Source: Planctomycetota bacterium (GTDB taxonomy: Bacteria > Planctomycetota > PUPC01 > JACPCR01). From it: a DNA stretch of 33,653 nucleotides. Position numbers and translations under genes: made by a program. Below the pieces are notes generated by a model, which was given only the letters and a program-made list of their open reading frames with translations, had not been told where the DNA came from and made no database searches. Position 1 is the first letter of the stretch. Each line of letters starts with the position of its first letter. Location: NCBI GenBank assembly GCA_030740295.1, contig JASLXP010000315.1:1-33653 (forward strand), given 5' to 3'. Below, piece by piece: positions 6,328 to 23,720 of the stretch.

Positions 6328-8436
6328 ATGAATAGTTCAAAAGAGCCTGTACTGCTGAAGAAGGAACTCGGACTGCTGCGGGTTTATGCCATTGCAACCG
6401 GTGCGACGCTCAGCTCAGGGTTCTTCCTGCTGCCCGGGCTCGCATTCAAAGAAGCCGGGCCGGCGATAGTGCTCAGTTACATTCTGGCTGTGGTACCTCT
6501 GATCCCTGCCATGTTCAGCATGGTCGAACTGGCCACCGCCATGCCTCGTGCCGGCGGAGCCTACTTCTTCCTCGATCGCAGTATGGGGCCGCTTGTCGGT
6601 ACGATTGGTGGAGTCGGGACCTGGCTGGCTCTCATGCTCAAAACTGCCTTCGCCCTCATTGGGATGGGCGCTTACATCCGCATCTACTTCCCGGAAATGC
6701 CCATTGTTCCAGCCGCGGCCGTTCTCGCGATTTTATTCAGCGGCGCCAATCTGCTCGGTGCGAAGAAAACCGGCTCCGTTCAAATCTTTCTTGTGTGTGG
6801 TCTGCTGGCCATCCTGTGCTGGTTCATTGGAAGCGGCGTCACTAAAGTTGAGCCAGCCCATTTTTCAGATTTCTTCAGCGTCGGTTTCAATTCCATCCTT
6901 GGAACTGCCGGCCTGGTCTACATAAGCTATGTCGGGGTGACCAAGGTGGCCAGTGTCGCGGAAGAAGTAAAAGACCCGGAGCGTAATCTACCATTGGGCG
7001 TGTTTCTGTCCGTGCTGACCTCGGTCGTCGTTTATGGGCTTGGCACATATGTCATGGTCGGAGTGGTTGCGCCTGAGAAACTCTCGGGCGACCTGACGCC
7101 AGTGGCCTCTTGCGCGGAAATCCTGGCGGGATCGTGGGGAGTCGGGCTCGTGACCATTTCGGCTCTCTTCGCTTTTTCCGCGGTGGCCAATGCCGGGATA
7201 CTGAGTGCATCACGATACCCTCTCGCCATGAGCCGGGACCATCTCATCCCCGGTTACTTCAAGAAATTCAACAAACGCGGCACGCCTTCGGCAGGCATAT
7301 ACGCAACTCTTGCGGTGATCCTGGTCGTTATCTTCGCCTTCGATCCGATGAAGATCGCCAAGTTGGCCAGCGCTTTCCAGCTCTTGTTGTTTGCGATGAT
7401 TTGTATGGCCGTCATCGTCATGAGGGAGAGCGGGCTGGAGTCCTACGACTCCGGCTACCGTTCACCGTTTTATCCCTGGATGCAGCTTCTGGGCATTGTG
7501 ATTCCCGGCGCAATCATCATGGAGATGGGGCCTTTGCCAGTGGTGTTTTCTTTTGGCCTTGTCGCGGTTGGGGCAGCCTGGTACTTCTATTACGCACGGA
7601 CTCGCGTTATCCGGCACGGGGCCATATTTCATCTTTTCGAACGCTTCGGCCATCAGCGTTCCGAGGGGCTTGACCGTGAGCTGCGCGGCTTCCTGAAAGA
7701 CAGGGGCCTTCGAGAAGACGACCCTTATGACGAAGTCATCGCGAGCGCGTCCCTGATTGATCTGGACGAATCCATCAGCTTTGAGGAATTGACGGACAGG
7801 GCCTCTGAGCTCCTCGCCGAACGTCTGCCGACGAGTGCGAAAGAAATCGCCGAAGGGTTCCTGCAGGGCACGCGGGTGGGCGCGACGCCCGTGTCCAGCG
7901 GCGCGGCATTGCCGCACCTCCGTTTAAACATTCAGAGCAAACCATTGCTGGTGATCGTTCGTAGCGGGCCCGGGTTACACATCCAGGTGCCCAGCCTGGA
8001 TTACAGCGAAACATACGAAGAACTGGTCTACGCCCTGTTCTTTCTGGTGAGCCCCGAGGACGAAGCCGCCAAACACCTGCGGATTCTTGCCGAACTGGCA
8101 AAACACATCGACCGCGACGACTTCATGAGCGACTGGCACGCCGCGGCCGATGGGCTGGAACTGAAAGAATCACTCTTACGCGAAGAACGGATGTTGCGGC
8201 TTGAATTGTCCCGTTCCACCAAATCGGAAACGCTCATCGGCTACGCTTTGCGGGACCTTCGACTTCCCGCAGGCAGCCTGATAGCTCTTGTCGGCAAGGG
8301 CAACGAAAACATCATTCCGGACGGCAATACGGTACTCGAGGAAGGCGACCATCTCTGCATTATCGGAAACTCGAAATCCATCCAGGAACTCCAGGAGCGG
8401 TATGCGGGCCCCAAGGAGCCTGCAGAGGTGGATTGA
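6328..8436 (+). CDS. APC-family amino acid permease fused to PTS EIIA-like and TrkA-C domains
   Basis: The 702-residue protein starts at an ATG with GGAGG five bases upstream. Residues about 15-430 form a multi-helix membrane region of the APC superfamily. The first helix carries the typical glycine-rich entry (GATLSSGFFLLPG, 25-37), and the EVKDPERNLPLG loop is characteristic of amino acid permeases. About 467-605 is a cytoplasmic PTS EIIA type-2-like domain. Its conserved phosphorylatable histidine appears to be H530 in AALPHLRL. About 621-692 matches a TrkA-C (RCK C-terminal) ligand-binding domain (LRDLRLPAGSLIALVGKG, EEGDHLCIIG). Likely role: proton- or sodium-coupled amino acid uptake gated by phosphorylation and/or a small ligand. 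The substrate is unknown. Confidence 0.9.
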   Translation: MNSSKEPVLLKKELGLLRVYAIATGATLSSGFFLLPGLAFKEAGPAIVLSYILAVVPLIPAMFSMVELATAMPRAGGAYFFLDRSMGPLVGTIGGVGTWLALMLKTAFALIGMGAYIRIYFPEMPIVPAAAVLAILFSGANLLGAKKTGSVQIFLVCGLLAILCWFIGSGVTKVEPAHFSDFFSVGFNSILGTAGLVYISYVGVTKVASVAEEVKDPERNLPLGVFLSVLTSVVVYGLGTYVMVGVVAPEKLSGDLTPVASCAEILAGSWGVGLVTISALFAFSAVANAGILSASRYPLAMSRDHLIPGYFKKFNKRGTPSAGIYATLAVILVVIFAFDPMKIAKLASAFQLLLFAMICMAVIVMRESGLESYDSGYRSPFYPWMQLLGIVIPGAIIMEMGPLPVVFSFGLVAVGAAWYFYYARTRVIRHGAIFHLFERFGHQRSEGLDRELRGFLKDRGLREDDPYDEVIASASLIDLDESISFEELTDRASELLAERLPTSAKEIAEGFLQGTRVGATPVSSGAALPHLRLNIQSKPLLVIVRSGPGLHIQVPSLDYSETYEELVYALFFLVSPEDEAAKHLRILAELAKHIDRDDFMSDWHAAADGLELKESLLREERMLRLELSRSTKSETLIGYALRDLRLPAGSLIALVGKGNENIIPDGNTVLEEGDHLCIIGNSKSIQELQERYAGPKEPAEVD

Positions 8437-8486: not shown

Positions 8487-8646
8487 GCGAGATTCGGTCC
8501 CAGAGCGTAACTTCGGACGGAATCATCCACATGCTCAGAGTGACCGGCAGAGCGTTCCTCCGAATGAGGGTGTGGATTGTTCGAACAGGCTCTCAGTCAG
8601 TATCATCCATCCCGGAAGAATCGTCTCCCGACAGCCTGCAAAGACA

Positions 8647-10329
8647 ATGCGGATCAACCCAGAGATTTCTATGGTCGCAATCACCGTGGCCCTTTTGCTG
8701 CACGGGGTGCTGTTAGCTGAAGATGCCTTCGTGGTCTGGCAGACTTCGCCGTGGATGCCTCTCGAGCCGGAGGCCCAAATCGAAGAGTCCGCGATGATGC
8801 CGGGGGCATTCGTCCCAGCGAAGTCCGGCACAGACACCGCTCTGCCATTTGAAACTTCCGGCCCGGCCTGGCAGGCCCTTGCCCGGCTCGCCATGAACGA
8901 ATACCAGGCGGTCGTTCTCAACATTCGAAATAACGGGCCGCGAACGATCTTATTCAGTATCGACGAAGCGCCTCTCCTCAAAGCTGTGCCCGGGCTGAGC
9001 ATCGAGATGCGCCGTTCCTTCACGGAACCCATCTGGCAAGTTCCTGAAATGTCGCTGACCAAAACCGTCGAGGATCCGGGCGAGTTTGGGAAGCCCGGAC
9101 GCAACGGCGAGCCACTCTACAAGATGGGGCCGAAGCGAGTCCTGGCCGTGCCTGGACGCCAGGTACGCCAGGTGTGGCTGATTCTCCATACGAAGGCTGT
9201 CAAGCCCGGGCTCTATCGGGGTGAAGTTCCCATCGTTCCGCTTAACAGGGATATTCCATCGCGGCCAGTCAAATTCGCGGTCCGGGTCTATCCCTTTCGG
9301 CTTCCCGAACATGCGGAGCTCGGCGTCTACAACTGGGACTACGGTACCGACGAAGGCGCGCTCAGGCAGATGATCGCGCACAAGGTCAACACTTTCATGG
9401 TGACCTGTTTTCCTTATGAGCTGAAGGCCGACGGCGATGGCAACGTGAGTGGGAAGCTGTATTCGGCCGATCAGATTCGGCGTATCGAGAAGTACTGTCC
9501 AACGGCCAGGTACATCGGCAGCTACGGCACCTTTGAGGGAATGGTCGAATGGGCGAGGGACAACGGCGTGCAGTACATGAGCGACGATTTTGTCCGCATC
9601 TTTTCAAAAACCCTGATTTACATTCGCGAGTACTACAAAAAACTGGGCATCTGGGATCGGGTCGTCCTCCAACACGTGGACGAGGTCCACGGCGGCGAAA
9701 TCAACTGGGTGGAAGATCTCGGCCCCATTGCACGAAACGTAGACCCGAAGATGCGTTTCGCGATCTCCCTGATGAGCAGTTGGGACGATATCCGGCGAAT
9801 GGCGCCGTACACGGATGTCTGGCTGTTCCGCGGCGGGCGTTATGGCGACTTGGATTTCTGGGCCAGGCAGGTCCAGCGGGGCAGCACGGAATGGATGTTT
9901 CACGTCGGAAATGTCCTTCGCGGTTCACCCCCGCTCTCAGCCAACCGTGCCCGGCCCTGGGTAGCGTGGCGCATCCAGGTGATCGGCATTGCAAGTTTCA
10001 ATTATTACGGGGCAGTGTGGCGGCCGGGCAGCAACCCGGTCACTGTCCGAGGATGGGAGGCCCTGCGCGAGGGCGTGCAGGACTGGCAGTACTTCAATCT
10101 GCTCCGGAAGGAAGCAAAGAAGGCGCGCATTGCAGGCCACAAGAAAGAGGCCGACCGGGCCGAAGGGCTGACCGAAGAAATCATCTACGGCCTGCTGGGC
10201 CCGTACCGCCACTCGCCGAAAGTTTATATCACCAATCACCACGTGGTCAGCCACTACATTTACCGTGGGCGACACCGCGTCGCGCAGGAGATCGTGAAGT
10301 TGAAGAAACTGAATGGGGGAGAGCAATGA
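8647..10329 (+). CDS. Secreted DUF4091-domain protein (glycoside-hydrolase-like)
   Basis: Taking the ATG at 8647 gives 560 residues with an N-terminal hydrophobic segment (MVAITVALLLHGVLLA, residues 9-24) as signal peptide. ATG 8671 is an equally good alternative start, while the GTG at 8572 would add an unneeded leader. The C-terminal third carries the hallmark of DUF4091 proteins, WEALREGVQDWQYFNLLRKE beginning at W470. Upstream are an N-terminal beta-sandwich region and a central TIM-barrel-like part (HKVNTFMVTCFPY, VVLQHVDEVHGGEINW). DUF4091 proteins are thought to act on glycans, but the reaction is not established for most. The gene overlaps the next by 4 bases (ATGA), so the two are translationally coupled. 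Confidence 0.82.
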   Translation: MRINPEISMVAITVALLLHGVLLAEDAFVVWQTSPWMPLEPEAQIEESAMMPGAFVPAKSGTDTALPFETSGPAWQALARLAMNEYQAVVLNIRNNGPRTILFSIDEAPLLKAVPGLSIEMRRSFTEPIWQVPEMSLTKTVEDPGEFGKPGRNGEPLYKMGPKRVLAVPGRQVRQVWLILHTKAVKPGLYRGEVPIVPLNRDIPSRPVKFAVRVYPFRLPEHAELGVYNWDYGTDEGALRQMIAHKVNTFMVTCFPYELKADGDGNVSGKLYSADQIRRIEKYCPTARYIGSYGTFEGMVEWARDNGVQYMSDDFVRIFSKTLIYIREYYKKLGIWDRVVLQHVDEVHGGEINWVEDLGPIARNVDPKMRFAISLMSSWDDIRRMAPYTDVWLFRGGRYGDLDFWARQVQRGSTEWMFHVGNVLRGSPPLSANRARPWVAWRIQVIGIASFNYYGAVWRPGSNPVTVRGWEALREGVQDWQYFNLLRKEAKKARIAGHKKEADRAEGLTEEIIYGLLGPYRHSPKVYITNHHVVSHYIYRGRHRVAQEIVKLKKLNGGEQ

Positions 10330-12296
10330 ATTTCCGATTCCTCCCTCTGCTGTTCGGTCGATTACAGCGAAATGGAAATAACTTGACGGATTTCTGTAGC
10401 CCCGGAGGGGCGAAAGCATGTAGCCCCGGGCGCAAGCCCGGGGATGAAGAGCAAAGACGAAATCCAGCCCCGGAGGGGCGGAAGTGGCCTTTCTGCGGAG
10501 TCTGCTTTCGCCCCTCTGGGGCTGGATCTGCCGTGACTTCCGAATCCTGGGGCTTGCGCCCCAGGCTACATGCTTCCGCCCCTCCGGGGCTAAATCCGTC
10601 AATCTATTTGCTCTGGGCTGTACTGGCCGCCTCCGTCAGTGCCGAGTTCACTCCGTTTGGCCAGTCGCTTATTTCCAATGGCGGCTTCGAGCATGGTAGT
10701 TCCCTGACGACGCGCACTCCCGATCATTGGCACCCGGGTCGGCCGGAATGGCAGGCTGCATTTGTCCTGTTCCCCTTAAAAGACGCCGGGGGAGAAGCAT
10801 TCGCCGCCATTCACCTTCGCGGGAAGTGGGACGGCAGCGATTGGGTGACCGGACCCTTCCCGCTGTGGCCGGGCGGCAAGGGGGAAGTGGATCTCAAGGT
10901 CTCGGTCCCCGAGCCAGCAGCGAAACTCGAATTGATCCTGGAAGGCGTTTCCACATGGCCGGTCTCGAATCAGAGCGGGACATACAAATTTGTAGTGCCC
11001 GCGAAATATCCGCCCGGCAAAGATGCATTGTTGCGTCTGAAAGACTTCAAAGGTGCTACGAAGCCCGGAGCCATAGAAAACCTTCAACTCCGAATTCTGA
11101 CGGTTGCCGGCGGCGGAATGACCGAGTTTGCGAAAGAGCATGGCCATGCCGTCTGGGGGCGGGATGGCAAAGATGGGGACCACACGATTTCCGCAGTTGC
11201 TCCCGCGCCGTGGAATCACGCTGCCTGGCACAGCAGTGCTTTTCTTCTGAAACCTTCGACTGCCTATCGCCTGGCCTTTGACTACAGGTCCACTGCGCTG
11301 GTCCGGAAAGCCATCGGGCTGACACCCGGGGGCAACTGGAGTCTGCCCGCCACCGGGGGGCGTTGGTCTCACAGAGAATTCCGCGTTGTCACTCCGGACA
11401 CGGCCAAAACCGCGCGAGCGATCATCCAGAACGCATCGTTTGGGAATCCGACTGCCGCCGGCGATTGGAATACGTCGCACATCACATTCAAAAACGTGTC
11501 CCTTCTTGAAAGTCCGGCAAAGGAGCAGCCCTTCTACAAACTGTTTGAAAAGGCCAGGGAGGCAGCGGGCATGCTTGACTTGGCCGCGCGCCCGATAAAG
11601 TCCGGGGACGACCCGGTGACGTGGACCCGATCGGAAGTGCTCAAGCAAGTAGGGGCTCTGGAGAAGAAAGTCCAGGCCATGGTCGCCTCATATCCGCCGA
11701 AAGATCCGCAAGAAACACTGGCCCTCATCGGTGAAGCGCAGGCAGTCTTCGACAAGATCCGCGGCCGGCCCTACTGCTTGTGGCTGCCGGACCTCTCTTC
11801 CGGCTTTCCATTGAATGCGTTTCCGAATTCATCGAGGAGTGTGCTCGTCGCGCCTGACGTTGGCGGGGCGGGAGCGCCGGTGGATCAGTTCGACCCTCTG
11901 AAGGAAGAAGCCAAAATCGAAGAAGGCATTGAAACAGCCGACATCGGCGGCATGCAGGTCTCGGCCAACGACCAGGGCGATATCCGCATCCGCGCGCCAA
12001 AGGAGGAGCCCGTCAGCTTTGCTGTCGGGTTTACCAACTACACGGCCGAAGCCCTCAGCTACGTGGCTCAGGTAGAAGGTGAGATAAAGCTCGAGTACCT
12101 CAGAGGCCGCGGCAAACTGCTTCCCGGAAAGAAGCAGCCGGCAACCATTCCCGTCGAAGGGGAACTGCAGGAGGTCGTCTTCTCAGAGGGGGAAACGACG
12201 TTTCTGTGGATCACCTGCAATACCGGCGGGAGTCTGGATCTGATCAGCATGATGAAAAATCACGGCCATATTTCTGCCAAGATCATCTGGAAGTAA
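10326..12296 (+). CDS. Secreted carbohydrate-binding-like protein with a repeat element in its N-terminus
   Basis: The frame runs from the ATG at 10326, overlapping the previous stop as ATGA, to 12296 (656 residues). Residues 1-10 (MNFRFLPLLF) look like the start of a signal peptide. Residues about 20-93 are encoded by a 220-bp palindromic repeat and look like non-protein sequence rich in Pro, Gly, Arg and Cys. A signal-peptide-like stretch (LLWAVLAASVSA) then resumes directly before the mature part. From about 115 the protein shows two jelly-roll-like domains of CBM type (LISNGGFEHG; AWHSSAFLLKPSTAYRLAFD), then a helical linker and a C-terminal strand-rich domain. I see no catalytic motif. 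Translation may really begin later (TTG 10608), or export may be impaired. It lies between two DUF4091 genes and is likely a partner. Confidence 0.7.
   Translation: MNFRFLPLLFGRLQRNGNNLTDFCSPGGAKACSPGRKPGDEEQRRNPAPEGRKWPFCGVCFRPSGAGSAVTSESWGLRPRLHASAPPGLNPSIYLLWAVLAASVSAEFTPFGQSLISNGGFEHGSSLTTRTPDHWHPGRPEWQAAFVLFPLKDAGGEAFAAIHLRGKWDGSDWVTGPFPLWPGGKGEVDLKVSVPEPAAKLELILEGVSTWPVSNQSGTYKFVVPAKYPPGKDALLRLKDFKGATKPGAIENLQLRILTVAGGGMTEFAKEHGHAVWGRDGKDGDHTISAVAPAPWNHAAWHSSAFLLKPSTAYRLAFDYRSTALVRKAIGLTPGGNWSLPATGGRWSHREFRVVTPDTAKTARAIIQNASFGNPTAAGDWNTSHITFKNVSLLESPAKEQPFYKLFEKAREAAGMLDLAARPIKSGDDPVTWTRSEVLKQVGALEKKVQAMVASYPPKDPQETLALIGEAQAVFDKIRGRPYCLWLPDLSSGFPLNAFPNSSRSVLVAPDVGGAGAPVDQFDPLKEEAKIEEGIETADIGGMQVSANDQGDIRIRAPKEEPVSFAVGFTNYTAEALSYVAQVEGEIKLEYLRGRGKLLPGKKQPATIPVEGELQEVVFSEGETTFLWITCNTGGSLDLISMMKNHGHISAKIIWK
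10383..10602. repeat. 220-bp palindromic element inside a coding region
   Basis: The ends are inverted repeats, TTGACGGATTT at 10383-10393 and AAATCCGTCAA at 10592-10602. Inside, the motif TAGCCCCGGAGGGGCG appears near the left end and its reverse complement near the right. GGGCGCAAGCCCGGGG and GGGGCTTGCGCCCC motifs form further hairpins. The whole unit is an imperfect long palindrome, like a paired REP (REPIN) or a MITE. I see no target-site duplication. It shares its ACGGATTT terminus with the element at 19359-19594. It stays open in the frame of the surrounding gene. Confidence 0.75.
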
Positions 12297-18000: not shown

Positions 18001-19314
18001 TATTCGGCGCCCGAGACCTTCGTGCACACGGTCAAGCAGCCCGGTGATGGGGCCGAGGCGCTGAAGAAATATCTCAGGGACGGCGGATGCCTGGTCGTGG
18101 CTGCACGGGGCTACCCTTTCTACTATCCGATGGAGCTCAAGGACGGAAAGCTGGAGCGGATCGAAGGCGCCCGGCACGCGGAGGTGTGCGGAGCGCTGGA
18201 AATCCCAATCAATTTCGGCCCCGTGCCGAAACTCGAAGCCATACCCAGGTACGAGCTGGTCGATGGTCAGAAGATGTTTTCACACCTGCCGCAAACGTTC
18301 CGCTACGTCGCGTCCGTTGGGGGCCCTTACCGGATACCACACGCTGGTGGCCTACCGAAAGGAGACATCTTCCGGCCAATGATGCGGTTGACCAGCCTGG
18401 CTGCCAAAACCTCAGAAGTCGTGGCCGCGACCATCGATCACCACTGCAAGAGCTACAAAGGCGGCCGCGCGGTCGTTCTCTGGGGCAATATTCTTGCCCA
18501 GGAAATCGGCCCGGACATAGCGATCGATCTGATGACCCACGTGGTCTGCACGGCTCGCCTGAAACCGGAGCCACCGCACCGGCCTGTCGCAGCAATTCTG
18601 CCCCGCGATATGGGCGGTCACGAAAAGGCCATTGCCCGCGCCTGCGCATCAACCGGCCTGAAAACCCGGGCTCTGACACTGGAGGAATTTGCCGATCCTG
18701 CGGAGTTCAATCCGCGCCGGTATCCCATCGCAATCCATGCGGTGGGGGGCGAGGATTTCATCGATAAGATTCCCGGCCGGTCCGAACTCTGGCGAGTGTA
18801 CGTCGACTACGTAAAAAGCGGCGGCCTGCTGGTGGCCTGCGGCAACATGTGGCAGTTTTACTACGCGGGAACGATTGACCGGAAAGGCCAGTGGCGCCAG
18901 CAACACGATCGGGAGCAGCTCATCCTGAATGGCCTTGGTCTGACAGGCGGTTTTGGCTTCGGCCGTAATCCGGGCTCAATGAAACTGAGGTCACTGCCCG
19001 GCCAGGATGTGATTAAGTTCAGCTCACCCATCCCGCTCCATACCATCCACTTCAGTCAGTATCGAGCAATCAGCGCGGGTGAGATGCAGGAGGGCAAATT
19101 CATCCCCATCGCCCGGGTCGTCGGTGGCGGCGGCCAGCCCTTCGGCGGCTACGTCATCGCCAATCTTCGTCTCAGCGAAAACAAACACAGCGGGGGAGAG
19201 GTCATCTGGTTCTGGGGCAACCTTCTTGACAACGAGCGCAGCCATTCCCTCTTGAACCAGGCCATCAAGTACGCGTTCGAACGCCGCAAGAGATTACTCT
19301 CTCCCAGTCCATAG
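15094..19314 (+). CDS. Very large secreted protein with alpha-toroid region and duplicated amidotransferase-like domain
   Basis: A GTG start at 15094, with GAGG shortly upstream, begins a signal peptide (MIISRIILTTALACTAPVCG) and a 1406-residue protein. The first ~250 residues look like a beta-sandwich. About 270-580 is helix-rich and resembles an (alpha/alpha) toroid of the six-hairpin type seen in many polysaccharide lyases and glycosidases. Strand-rich segments follow to about 860, then a basic coiled stretch (ARAEESRKAREAEVRAAKAL). Residues ~916-1050 and ~1163-1330 are two copies of one Rossmann-like domain. They share DP.EFN..RYPIA and YL.DGGCLVVA / YVKSGGLLVACG, reminiscent of class I glutamine-amidotransferase or ThuA-like folds. 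No catalytic Cys-His-Glu triad is evident. It is probably part of the same glycan-processing set. The gene is separated by 164 bases from the operon upstream. Confidence 0.65.
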   Translation: MIISRIILTTALACTAPVCGEVIIAQTGKTLELSNGATRLVAQMENGRGRGFGLFHQDSRQKLASVRIGGEGGWDAKLTGSVAQGNQAGSLTFSRIQASGAGGKPTFHDDSVMRVELRGSSSFPIVTFRLVLDRSGSPAPARFLACQMADAQFLYRGGFQTPLPTVDPFAAKALTSELPLGACPVPAIGLWNPDSATFVGYEFQEARGSNKTSKHLLTACRVSAAGSTSFALIIPKKKTPFVVESRFRLIYSTELPTTRSPNEFVLDHFWRNYRGRIPRVPEVNDLGWMPRREDFVPDDRTSSALLRRVQKSTAEEGLLFTNGALLVQGDSRGILNLFQSKGSARQQAALKQWRILESKAIRKQIKGDKCVFWRSPIEGEYEAWAGGKAAATVDSPHTWSIGASLLAIYQNQRNKGLLEAIDGVFRWTRHCSFTRAGDVSAPGAASAPAAVRASTDFLMGFYHAFKNEPDQTRRKMAEEAIRLGRAILYRNLAIYTGDPDETDTLDPTFLMQSDSSPESFGMVSWNNTSELIRSMALYHVETGDPVLKALVHGALERWPLGSESDGLHTIESLVSFRSHGAAKGIRFGLRAPGDRLAEYLQPIGAARLRILCGQKQALVFGADSTPAGIKDYRFQEPGNISFKLSSRTKRPVEIIITSPFRNLRGRQARLNGRPADAEAVGRHGEHVVIRKVRTGDVISIGEVNGSATETVKLPLTAKTGDGWDEFRFIQLTGSGAAPRTVDTSWHRGDSWAGLTEGIHFAHGVPFRLDTRMAFDATPGPLKIKIGKGVTSAFLFASTSQPPVIEATDAKGGQKKWKLKERLPALSSGPIRSWRIDVYPIRLTKSATPISLQISGSMLVFAVTTHPGKCAALENALARAEESRKAREAEVRAAKALQLAKQRIIPESRARVRAAIKGKVVRIAFVPPHEAYTEILRDACTRLGLPPVMLSEQNLIDPKEFNAGRYPIAVYSAPETFVHTVKQPGDGAEALKKYLRDGGCLVVAARGYPFYYPMELKDGKLERIEGARHAEVCGALEIPINFGPVPKLEAIPRYELVDGQKMFSHLPQTFRYVASVGGPYRIPHAGGLPKGDIFRPMMRLTSLAAKTSEVVAATIDHHCKSYKGGRAVVLWGNILAQEIGPDIAIDLMTHVVCTARLKPEPPHRPVAAILPRDMGGHEKAIARACASTGLKTRALTLEEFADPAEFNPRRYPIAIHAVGGEDFIDKIPGRSELWRVYVDYVKSGGLLVACGNMWQFYYAGTIDRKGQWRQQHDREQLILNGLGLTGGFGFGRNPGSMKLRSLPGQDVIKFSSPIPLHTIHFSQYRAISAGEMQEGKFIPIARVVGGGGQPFGGYVIANLRLSENKHSGGEVIWFWGNLLDNERSHSLLNQAIKYAFERRKRLLSPSP

Positions 19315-19358: not shown

Positions 19359-19594
19359 TTTTACGGATTTCAGGGGCAACGCCCCGCCGGTTTGCCTAGC
19401 CCAGCCCGGAGGGCTGGGAAGTAATAAAGCACAATCAGAGGGGCAAGGCCCCGATCATTTGCACGGCTGACCTGCTGCAAATGGCCGGGGCGTTGCCCCT
19501 GAATGGCAATCCTTCTCTAAACCCAGCCCGTTGGGCTGGGCTAGGCAAAGGTCCGGGGCTTTGCCCCTGAAAATTGTCTTTCAAATCCGTAAAA
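19359..19594. repeat. 236-bp palindromic element with 12-bp terminal inverted repeats
   Basis: The termini TTTTACGGATTT (19359-19370) and AAATCCGTAAAA (19583-19594) are perfect inverted repeats. Moving inward, TTTGCCTAGCCCAGCCC on the left is matched by its exact reverse complement on the right, and GGGGCAAGGCCCC and CGGGGCGTTGCCCC form the centre. The element can therefore fold into one long branched hairpin. It shares ACGGATTT ends and a GC-hairpin interior with the element at 10383-10602. No transposase is encoded, so it would be a non-autonomous (REPIN/MITE-like) unit. Confidence 0.78.
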
Positions 19595-19781: not shown

Positions 19782-19809
19782 TTTCGAAATATTTGAAGGG
19801 AAACCACTG

Positions 19810-23636: not shown

Positions 23637-23720
23637 GGATGCTGGATGCTCGATACTGGATTCTGGATTCTGGATACTGGATACTCGATACTGGATGCTC
23701 GATACTGGTTATTCGATGTG
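23637..23720. repeat. Heptamer array, left arm (GGATACT / GGATTCT / GGATGCT / CGATACT)
   Basis: Twelve consecutive 7-base units fill 23637-23720. The first ten fit the pattern SGATDCT closely and the last two are degenerate. The reverse complement of the same unit family makes the array at 23804-23873. The array is open in one frame, which creates a false N-terminal extension of trmI. Confidence 0.85.

Follow-up and report, generated by a model that had tools for sequence, protein, structure and literature searches.

We analyzed a palindromic repeat in a 33,653-nucleotide stretch of DNA from a Planctomycetota bacterium (GenBank assembly GCA_030740295.1, contig JASLXP010000315.1; the whole stretch is termed the window). 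The repeat lies in frame near the beginning of P0001, an open reading frame (ORF) for a secreted-type protein, and is an inverted dimer of double-hairpin units that resemble repetitive extragenic palindromes (REPs). In relatives, dimers of this family are linked to transposases, and in one gene of a relative the element is preceded by a conserved start codon. We consider it probable that a mobile REP-like dimer has inserted in frame into the signal peptide of P0001 and is read through, that the N-terminal extra is cleaved off and that the gene tolerates the insertion. Mobility, read-through, export and cleavage are inferred.

An earlier note, made from the sequence alone, had described a stop-free palindromic repeat at 10383-10602. 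Both properties hold. For the strand 10326-10640 the folding energy is -196.8 kcal/mol, compared to -120.3 ± 5.2 kcal/mol for shuffled sequences (z = -14.6; 0/100 shuffles as low), and the frame is open. The extent had to be revised, as self-alignment yields the wider limits listed in Table 1, with outer arms of 35 nt that are identical at 24 positions. The segment 10383-10602 has three open frames out of six, compared to a mean of 0.73 across 2000 base shuffles, and the open frame is therefore a property of the repeat and unremarkable by itself. The two units are in inverted orientation, as in REP dimers, and the same is found in relatives. If the TA at both ends (TACAGC...GCTGTA) is a target duplication, the insert has a length of 258 nt, which equals exactly 86 codons; extrapolated from this one site, the sequence before insertion would read MNFRFLPLLFGRLLAASVSA-EF.

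Codon use separates the element from its surroundings. The 12 codons preceding it score 0.336 per codon, compared to 0.263 for the gene body, which was held out and in which none of 48 overlapping blocks falls under 0.066. The element, at -0.264 per codon, is also below every one of 364 overlapping blocks from the training set of the score, which consisted of twelve ORFs (all blocks at least -0.10). Its codons are thus unlike those of the host, as expected of inserted DNA. Upstream, ATG 10326 overlaps the stop codon of the preceding ORF as ATGA and is itself preceded by GGGGGAG; because of these two features we favor it over TTG 10608 as the start. With a coupled start of this kind, the element is part of the coding sequence and precedes the core of the signal peptide. 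This core, like all others in this study, was called by Kyte-Doolittle hydropathy and without a signal-peptide predictor; its first half (YLLWAV) comes from the element and its second half (LAASVSA) from the host. The proposal of the earlier note that a signal-peptide-like stretch resumes after the element is hence correct for LAASVSA, whereas YLLWAV belongs to the element.

Table 1. Host gene and element, in positions of the window.
Feature	Position	Strand	Remarks
ORF upstream of host gene	8572..10329	+	stop TGA overlaps host start codon
Host ORF P0001	10326..12296	+	656 codons, secreted-type, no Pfam match; element = codons 13-99
Host N-terminus preceding element, MNFRFLPLLFGR	10326..10361	+	12 codons, codon score resembling gene body
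Whole inverted-repeat element, outer arms TACAGC...GCTGTA	~10363..10622	.	self-alignment to own reverse complement
Core dimer, 194 bp	10398..10591	.	dimer profile/length comparison
Left arm, RF01687 Acido-Lenti-1	10398..10443	-	46.8 bits, gathering 37
Right arm, RF01687 Acido-Lenti-1	10546..10591	+	49.8 bits, gathering 37
Right terminal repeat, read as YLLWAV	10605..10622	+	first half of signal-peptide hydrophobic core
Host part of signal peptide, LAASVSA then E	10623..10646	+	12-residue hydropathy 2.23 across joint

The resemblance of three further database proteins to the host protein is limited to the element and the beginning of the hydrophobic core. At the protein level, both outer arms are present in P0003 and P0004 and the right one in P0005, and the core that follows has a hydropathy of 2.29-2.65 in the three proteins. 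LLxAVL occurs in four otherwise unrelated proteins. One outer arm was found again as DNA (L054) in G001, the genome containing the contig of Planctomycetota bacterium casp150-mb.279; when the G001 loci were scanned with a motif for the arm, only the two arms of the window and a chance match came up, but not the arm of L054. In nine genomes of the nearest class the outer-arm pattern has just one copy, which does not support an independent miniature inverted-repeat transposable element. The element peptide has no match in viral contigs, and searching the window for repeats and tRNAs revealed nothing else relevant to the element.

Both arms of the element, in opposite orientation, exceed the covariance-model cut-off of the Rfam family RF01687. 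With 150 candidates scored per genome, at least 43, 44, 60, 146 and 39 matches to the family were obtained in five genomes, of which four are planctomycete and one is acidobacterial; 14 control genomes gave no match. Its distribution is patchy: among genomes of the family of G004, the planctomycete genome containing the contig of Planctomycetaceae bacterium NP86, 32 of 60 are matched. The core dimer was matched in at least 32 of 392 Planctomycetota genomes, with the best two candidates scored per genome. Many RF01687 matches pair as -/+. The 22 early dimers are pairs in which both arms match at normal spacing; we excluded the pair at L079 (308 bp). Searching with a profile of 34 dimers gave 77 full matches and 82 partial ones, and removal of three duplicate loci (L002, L005, L006) left a first set of 74 dimers. 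A second set, from other genomes of the G004 family, consists of 38 dimers, after three of 41 had been removed as duplicates or as cut by the locus end. Partial matches, including 53 in the second set, do not enter the frame counts below. Dimer length is 189-200 bp in 83 of all 112 dimers, window included, and ranges from 181 to 242 bp in the first set. The dimers at L077, L169 and L181 coincide with places found in the element-peptide search; L077 is one of the 18 in-frame cases described below.

To relate the dimers to transposases, we counted 69 matches to Y1 transposases in eight genomes and took 30 loci for analysis. The dimer profile detects half-dimer arms on both sides of the transposase in seven of the 30 loci and on one side in four. 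No dimer arm was found away from the transposase flanks in these loci, and 0/19 control loci from other genomes have any arm. RF01687 itself gave 12 matches in four of the first 20 loci and two matches in two of the other ten (6/30 in total); its background in the five genomes is about one match per 116 kb. The three transposases tested all pass the NCBIfam IS200/IS605 model NF033573 (65.6-81.7 bits, cut-off 55). Because half-dimers flank IS200/IS605-type Y1 transposases in relatives, our results suggest that the Acido-Lenti-1 'RNA' family is a REP-like mobile dimer, a transposase-associated repeat. In its workings the element would resemble a REP dimer, of the kind described as REP doublets forming hairpins (REPINs) or bacterial interspersed mosaic elements (BIMEs), and the flanked transposase that of a REPtron, and we assign them neither to the GTAG REPs nor to the REP-associated tyrosine transposases (RAYTs).

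Dimers that run in frame into a signal-peptide-like core are not confined to the window. For each strand and frame we required at least 150 open codons directly after the dimer, recorded whether the element was open, and searched the next 45 residues for a 12-residue core with a Kyte-Doolittle hydropathy of at least 1.9. In the first set 52 frames were of this type: among those followed by a core, 18 pass through the element and three are blocked, and among those without a core, ten pass and 21 are blocked (Fisher p = 1.5 × 10−4; 1.4 × 10−4 without the rows of the window). The baseline openness of element frames is 98/444. Over both sets 18 of the 112 dimers run in frame into a signal-peptide-like core, namely 14 of 49 in G004, two of nine in G001, one of six in the phylum sample (L027) and the window itself, with 0/47 elsewhere. 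With 14/49 in G004 compared to 0/38 in the second set (p = 1.2 × 10−4), in-frame signal-peptide insertion is therefore lineage-specific. A habit of the entire G004 family was not borne out by the 38 dimers of the second set. The statement of the earlier note that such repeats seldom sit inside open frames thus applies to most genomes sampled but not to G004, and intragenic REP-type repeats are commoner than it assumed (PMC3733652).

The position of the start codon was surveyed in the in-frame cases. In 14 of the 18 there is no start codon followed by a charged residue between element and core. Eleven in-frame cases have an upstream ORF in another frame, and in five of these (the window, L080, L138, the second dimer of L151, and L154) the start before the element overlaps the upstream stop by -1 (rough binomial p = 8 × 10−5 at 3/64; 8 × 10−4 without the window). 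L051, L053 and L077 are outside the 11, as their upstream ORFs are in the gene's own frame and end 3-12 nt before the start.

The earlier note had suggested looking for homologues that lack the insert, and two G004 genes of the same arrangement provide them. The L154 gene has a match in 46 of 60 genomes of the family, and 0/19 other loci examined, some of them perhaps paralogues, carry the element; in G004, 19 residues (GRFLLMFVVVASISVCAVA) separate it from the mature protein. The L138 gene, matched in 55 genomes, is the stronger empty-site case. The element is present in 0/24 other loci examined, and the upstream stop overlaps the start in 23 of 25 genomes including G004 (ATGA or GTGA in 21, TAATG in two; the exceptions are L276 and L294). 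In G004 the element follows this conserved coupled start after four codons. Unless G004 has abandoned the conserved start, the L138 element lies inside the coding sequence.

For the host gene itself, a second assembly contains P0002, which is 99% identical to it and in which the element's right half is read in the same frame. Residues 1-8 of P0002 are an unrelated MLKPSSSW, directly followed by that right half; this N-terminus may reflect a contig end, a misassembly or a rearrangement. The body of the host gene (10647-12296) is long and intact, yet P0002 is its sole homologue in the searches made. It was the only one among the approximately 8000 best candidates scored in each protein search. 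The genome-contig search gave no match, nor did 392 Planctomycetota genomes at E 0.001, and two genomes of the nearest family gave a single match with an E of 0.23 and three stops. A permease-like ORF of the window (6328-8436) has its best matches, at 55-77% identity, in G001 among ten genomes searched, in agreement with a planctomycete origin of the window.

Several observations weigh against our interpretation. The hydropathy threshold was picked after the first set had been seen. Run unchanged on the second set, the test gave 0 passing and two blocked frames with a core, and three passing and eight blocked frames without one; with both sets pooled the association persists (p = 2.8 × 10−4). 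Four of the 18 cases (L027, L084, L134 and L157) have a possible start after the element. No element-free homologue of the host gene of the window was found in the searches made, and copy counts, transposase flanking and empty sites were observed in related genomes only. The hairpin is very stable, begins approximately 37 nt after the start and could hinder translation. The NCBIfam REP-transposase model NF047646 has a cut-off of 80 bits, and two of the three transposases score 21.0 and 21.4 bits, whereas the third has no match. Finally, a GTAG foot marks REPs (PMC3733652) and precedes three of the four hairpins in the window (the fourth has TTAG), but over 224 arms, those of the window included, this tag is variable: the inner hairpin has GTAG in 116 and ATAG in 61, the outer one GTAG in nine. 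We have therefore dropped the unreserved label "GTAG REP" and use "REP-like"; our confidence in the insertion is independent of the tag.

The most serious alternative, which we regard as improbable, is that the element is effectively 5' untranslated, with translation starting inside or after it and the upstream ATG unused. In-frame GTG 10533, TTG 10554 and TTG 10608 do exist, and from TTG 10554 the product MRPRLHASAPPGLNPSIYLLWAVLAASVSA would resemble a signal peptide. Moreover, Di Nocera and colleagues argued that many N-terminal REPs are extragenic (PMC3733652), and the four cases with a possible start after the element would fit such an arrangement. GTG 10533 and TTG 10554, however, lie within the stable hairpin and have no clear ribosome site, whereas a restart at TTG 10608, one of the three options of the earlier note, would leave the core without a charged n-region. 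ATG 10326, with its stop overlap and GGGGGAG, looks like a normal start, and in the L138 gene of G004 it is the conserved coupled start that precedes the element.

That the insertion silences the host gene or is silencing it, with the open frame as a relic, was another of these options and appears very unlikely. It would account for a strong hairpin between start and core and for element codons that differ from those of the host, but approximately 550 intact codons with coding-like codon use follow the element, P0002 carries the intact gene together with the right half of the element, and in-frame passage is above baseline among comparable loci. Hardly credible is a genuine small RNA that overlaps a gene by chance. 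Rfam classes RF01687 as a small RNA gene, and the paper describing Acido-Lenti-1 lists it as RNA 'y' and cis-regulatory 'n' (PMC2864571); dispersed, multicopy inverted dimers of similar lengths that adjoin Y1 transposases have instead a REP-like anatomy. A long peptide inserted into the export signal is thus the best supported of the options raised in the earlier note.

We propose the following course of events. The palindrome would be non-autonomous and probably mobile, moved by a Y1 transposase, and would have entered the gene for a secreted protein a few codons downstream of its start, preserving the reading frame. Ribosomes would start at the coupled ATG 10326 and read through the hairpin. 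The preprotein would gain approximately 86 residues between its N-terminus and the hydrophobic core, whose first residues the terminal repeat of the element would supply. The extra residues would then be cleaved off by signal peptidase together with the signal peptide, and the insertion would be tolerated because the mature protein is unchanged. Insertions within mature coding sequence are presumably lost, while in-frame ones just after the start of a secreted-protein gene may survive because the extra residues precede the core and would leave with the signal peptide.

A more general idea, which we put forward tentatively and hold to be rather less likely than not to apply, is that in some Planctomycetota lineages REP-like dimers use signal peptides as a niche. 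In-frame insertions between N-terminus and core would repeatedly be kept, owing either to cleavage of the additional peptide or to targeting of such sites by the transposon, and the ends of the element could encode residues that preserve the core. If so, signal peptides would be a safe haven for a mobile element, and long, mosaic export signals would result. The case indicates a place where a gene may take up a probably mobile palindrome of 200-260 bp and still yield its product, and a family catalogued as 'small RNA' may prove to be a transposase-associated repeat. Two questions become testable: what amount of additional N-terminal peptide and mRNA structure is compatible with export in bacteria, and whether it is transposition or selection that brings these repeats into signal peptides. 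Genes of this type are also prone to errors in annotation, in their start sites as well as in their signal peptides.

Some further repeats were seen along the way. In G004, contigs end within approximately 250 nt of the match start at L139, L140, L144, L145, L152, L153, L155 and L161; palindromes may break assembly there. At L083 (2013-2204) a G004 dimer is in frame between the hydantoinase A and hydantoinase B domains of a single ORF of 1219 codons, which may be an insertion into a linker or reflect a fusion that the element brought about. Upstream of their dimers, L154 and L127 have a common SPHAPRED stretch in translation, apparently another in-frame repeat in G004. Within the window, a second and different REP-like cluster with TAGCCCAGCCCGGAGGGCTGGG and GGGGCAACGCCCC-type arms occupies 19360-19500, between one ORF that ends at 19314 and another that starts at 19793, and a heptamer repeat (GGATGCT/GGATACT type; 23637-23720) spans the called start (23646) of a GCD14-like methyltransferase ORF.

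REPs within genes, and one signal peptide built from a repeat, have already been published; the literature matches listed include no report of repeated insertion of repeats into signal peptides. Rickettsia palindromic elements (RPEs) are likewise palindromes in frame within protein genes, and N-termini decorated by RPE-1 are reported to be expressed (PMC3733652, PMC2229807). They differ in their host and, in the text consulted, have no signal-peptide habit; the likeness is one of description. The Yersinia RU-2/YPAL repeat in YPO1552 (PMC2759123, PMC2229807) concerns one locus, whereas here many unrelated genes are involved and the insert lies between N-terminus and core. Both arms of the window exceed the gathering threshold of RF01687, which we read as a transposase-associated DNA repeat and not as an independent small RNA. 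The closest parallel is with GTAG REPs, REPINs/BIMEs and REPtrons (PMC3733652; definitions in PMC6006769). Like the elements described here, these are inverted dimers with many copies, in our case in relatives. In REPtrons the units flank Y1 transposase genes, as they do in relatives here, and some copies are inside ORFs, including N-termini (PMC3733652). The transposases found here fit the NCBIfam IS200/IS605 model and not the REP-transposase model, which sets them apart from RAYTs, and the dimers differ from GTAG REPs by their double-hairpin units, their length of approximately 196 bp, their variable tag and their repeated insertion into signal peptides.

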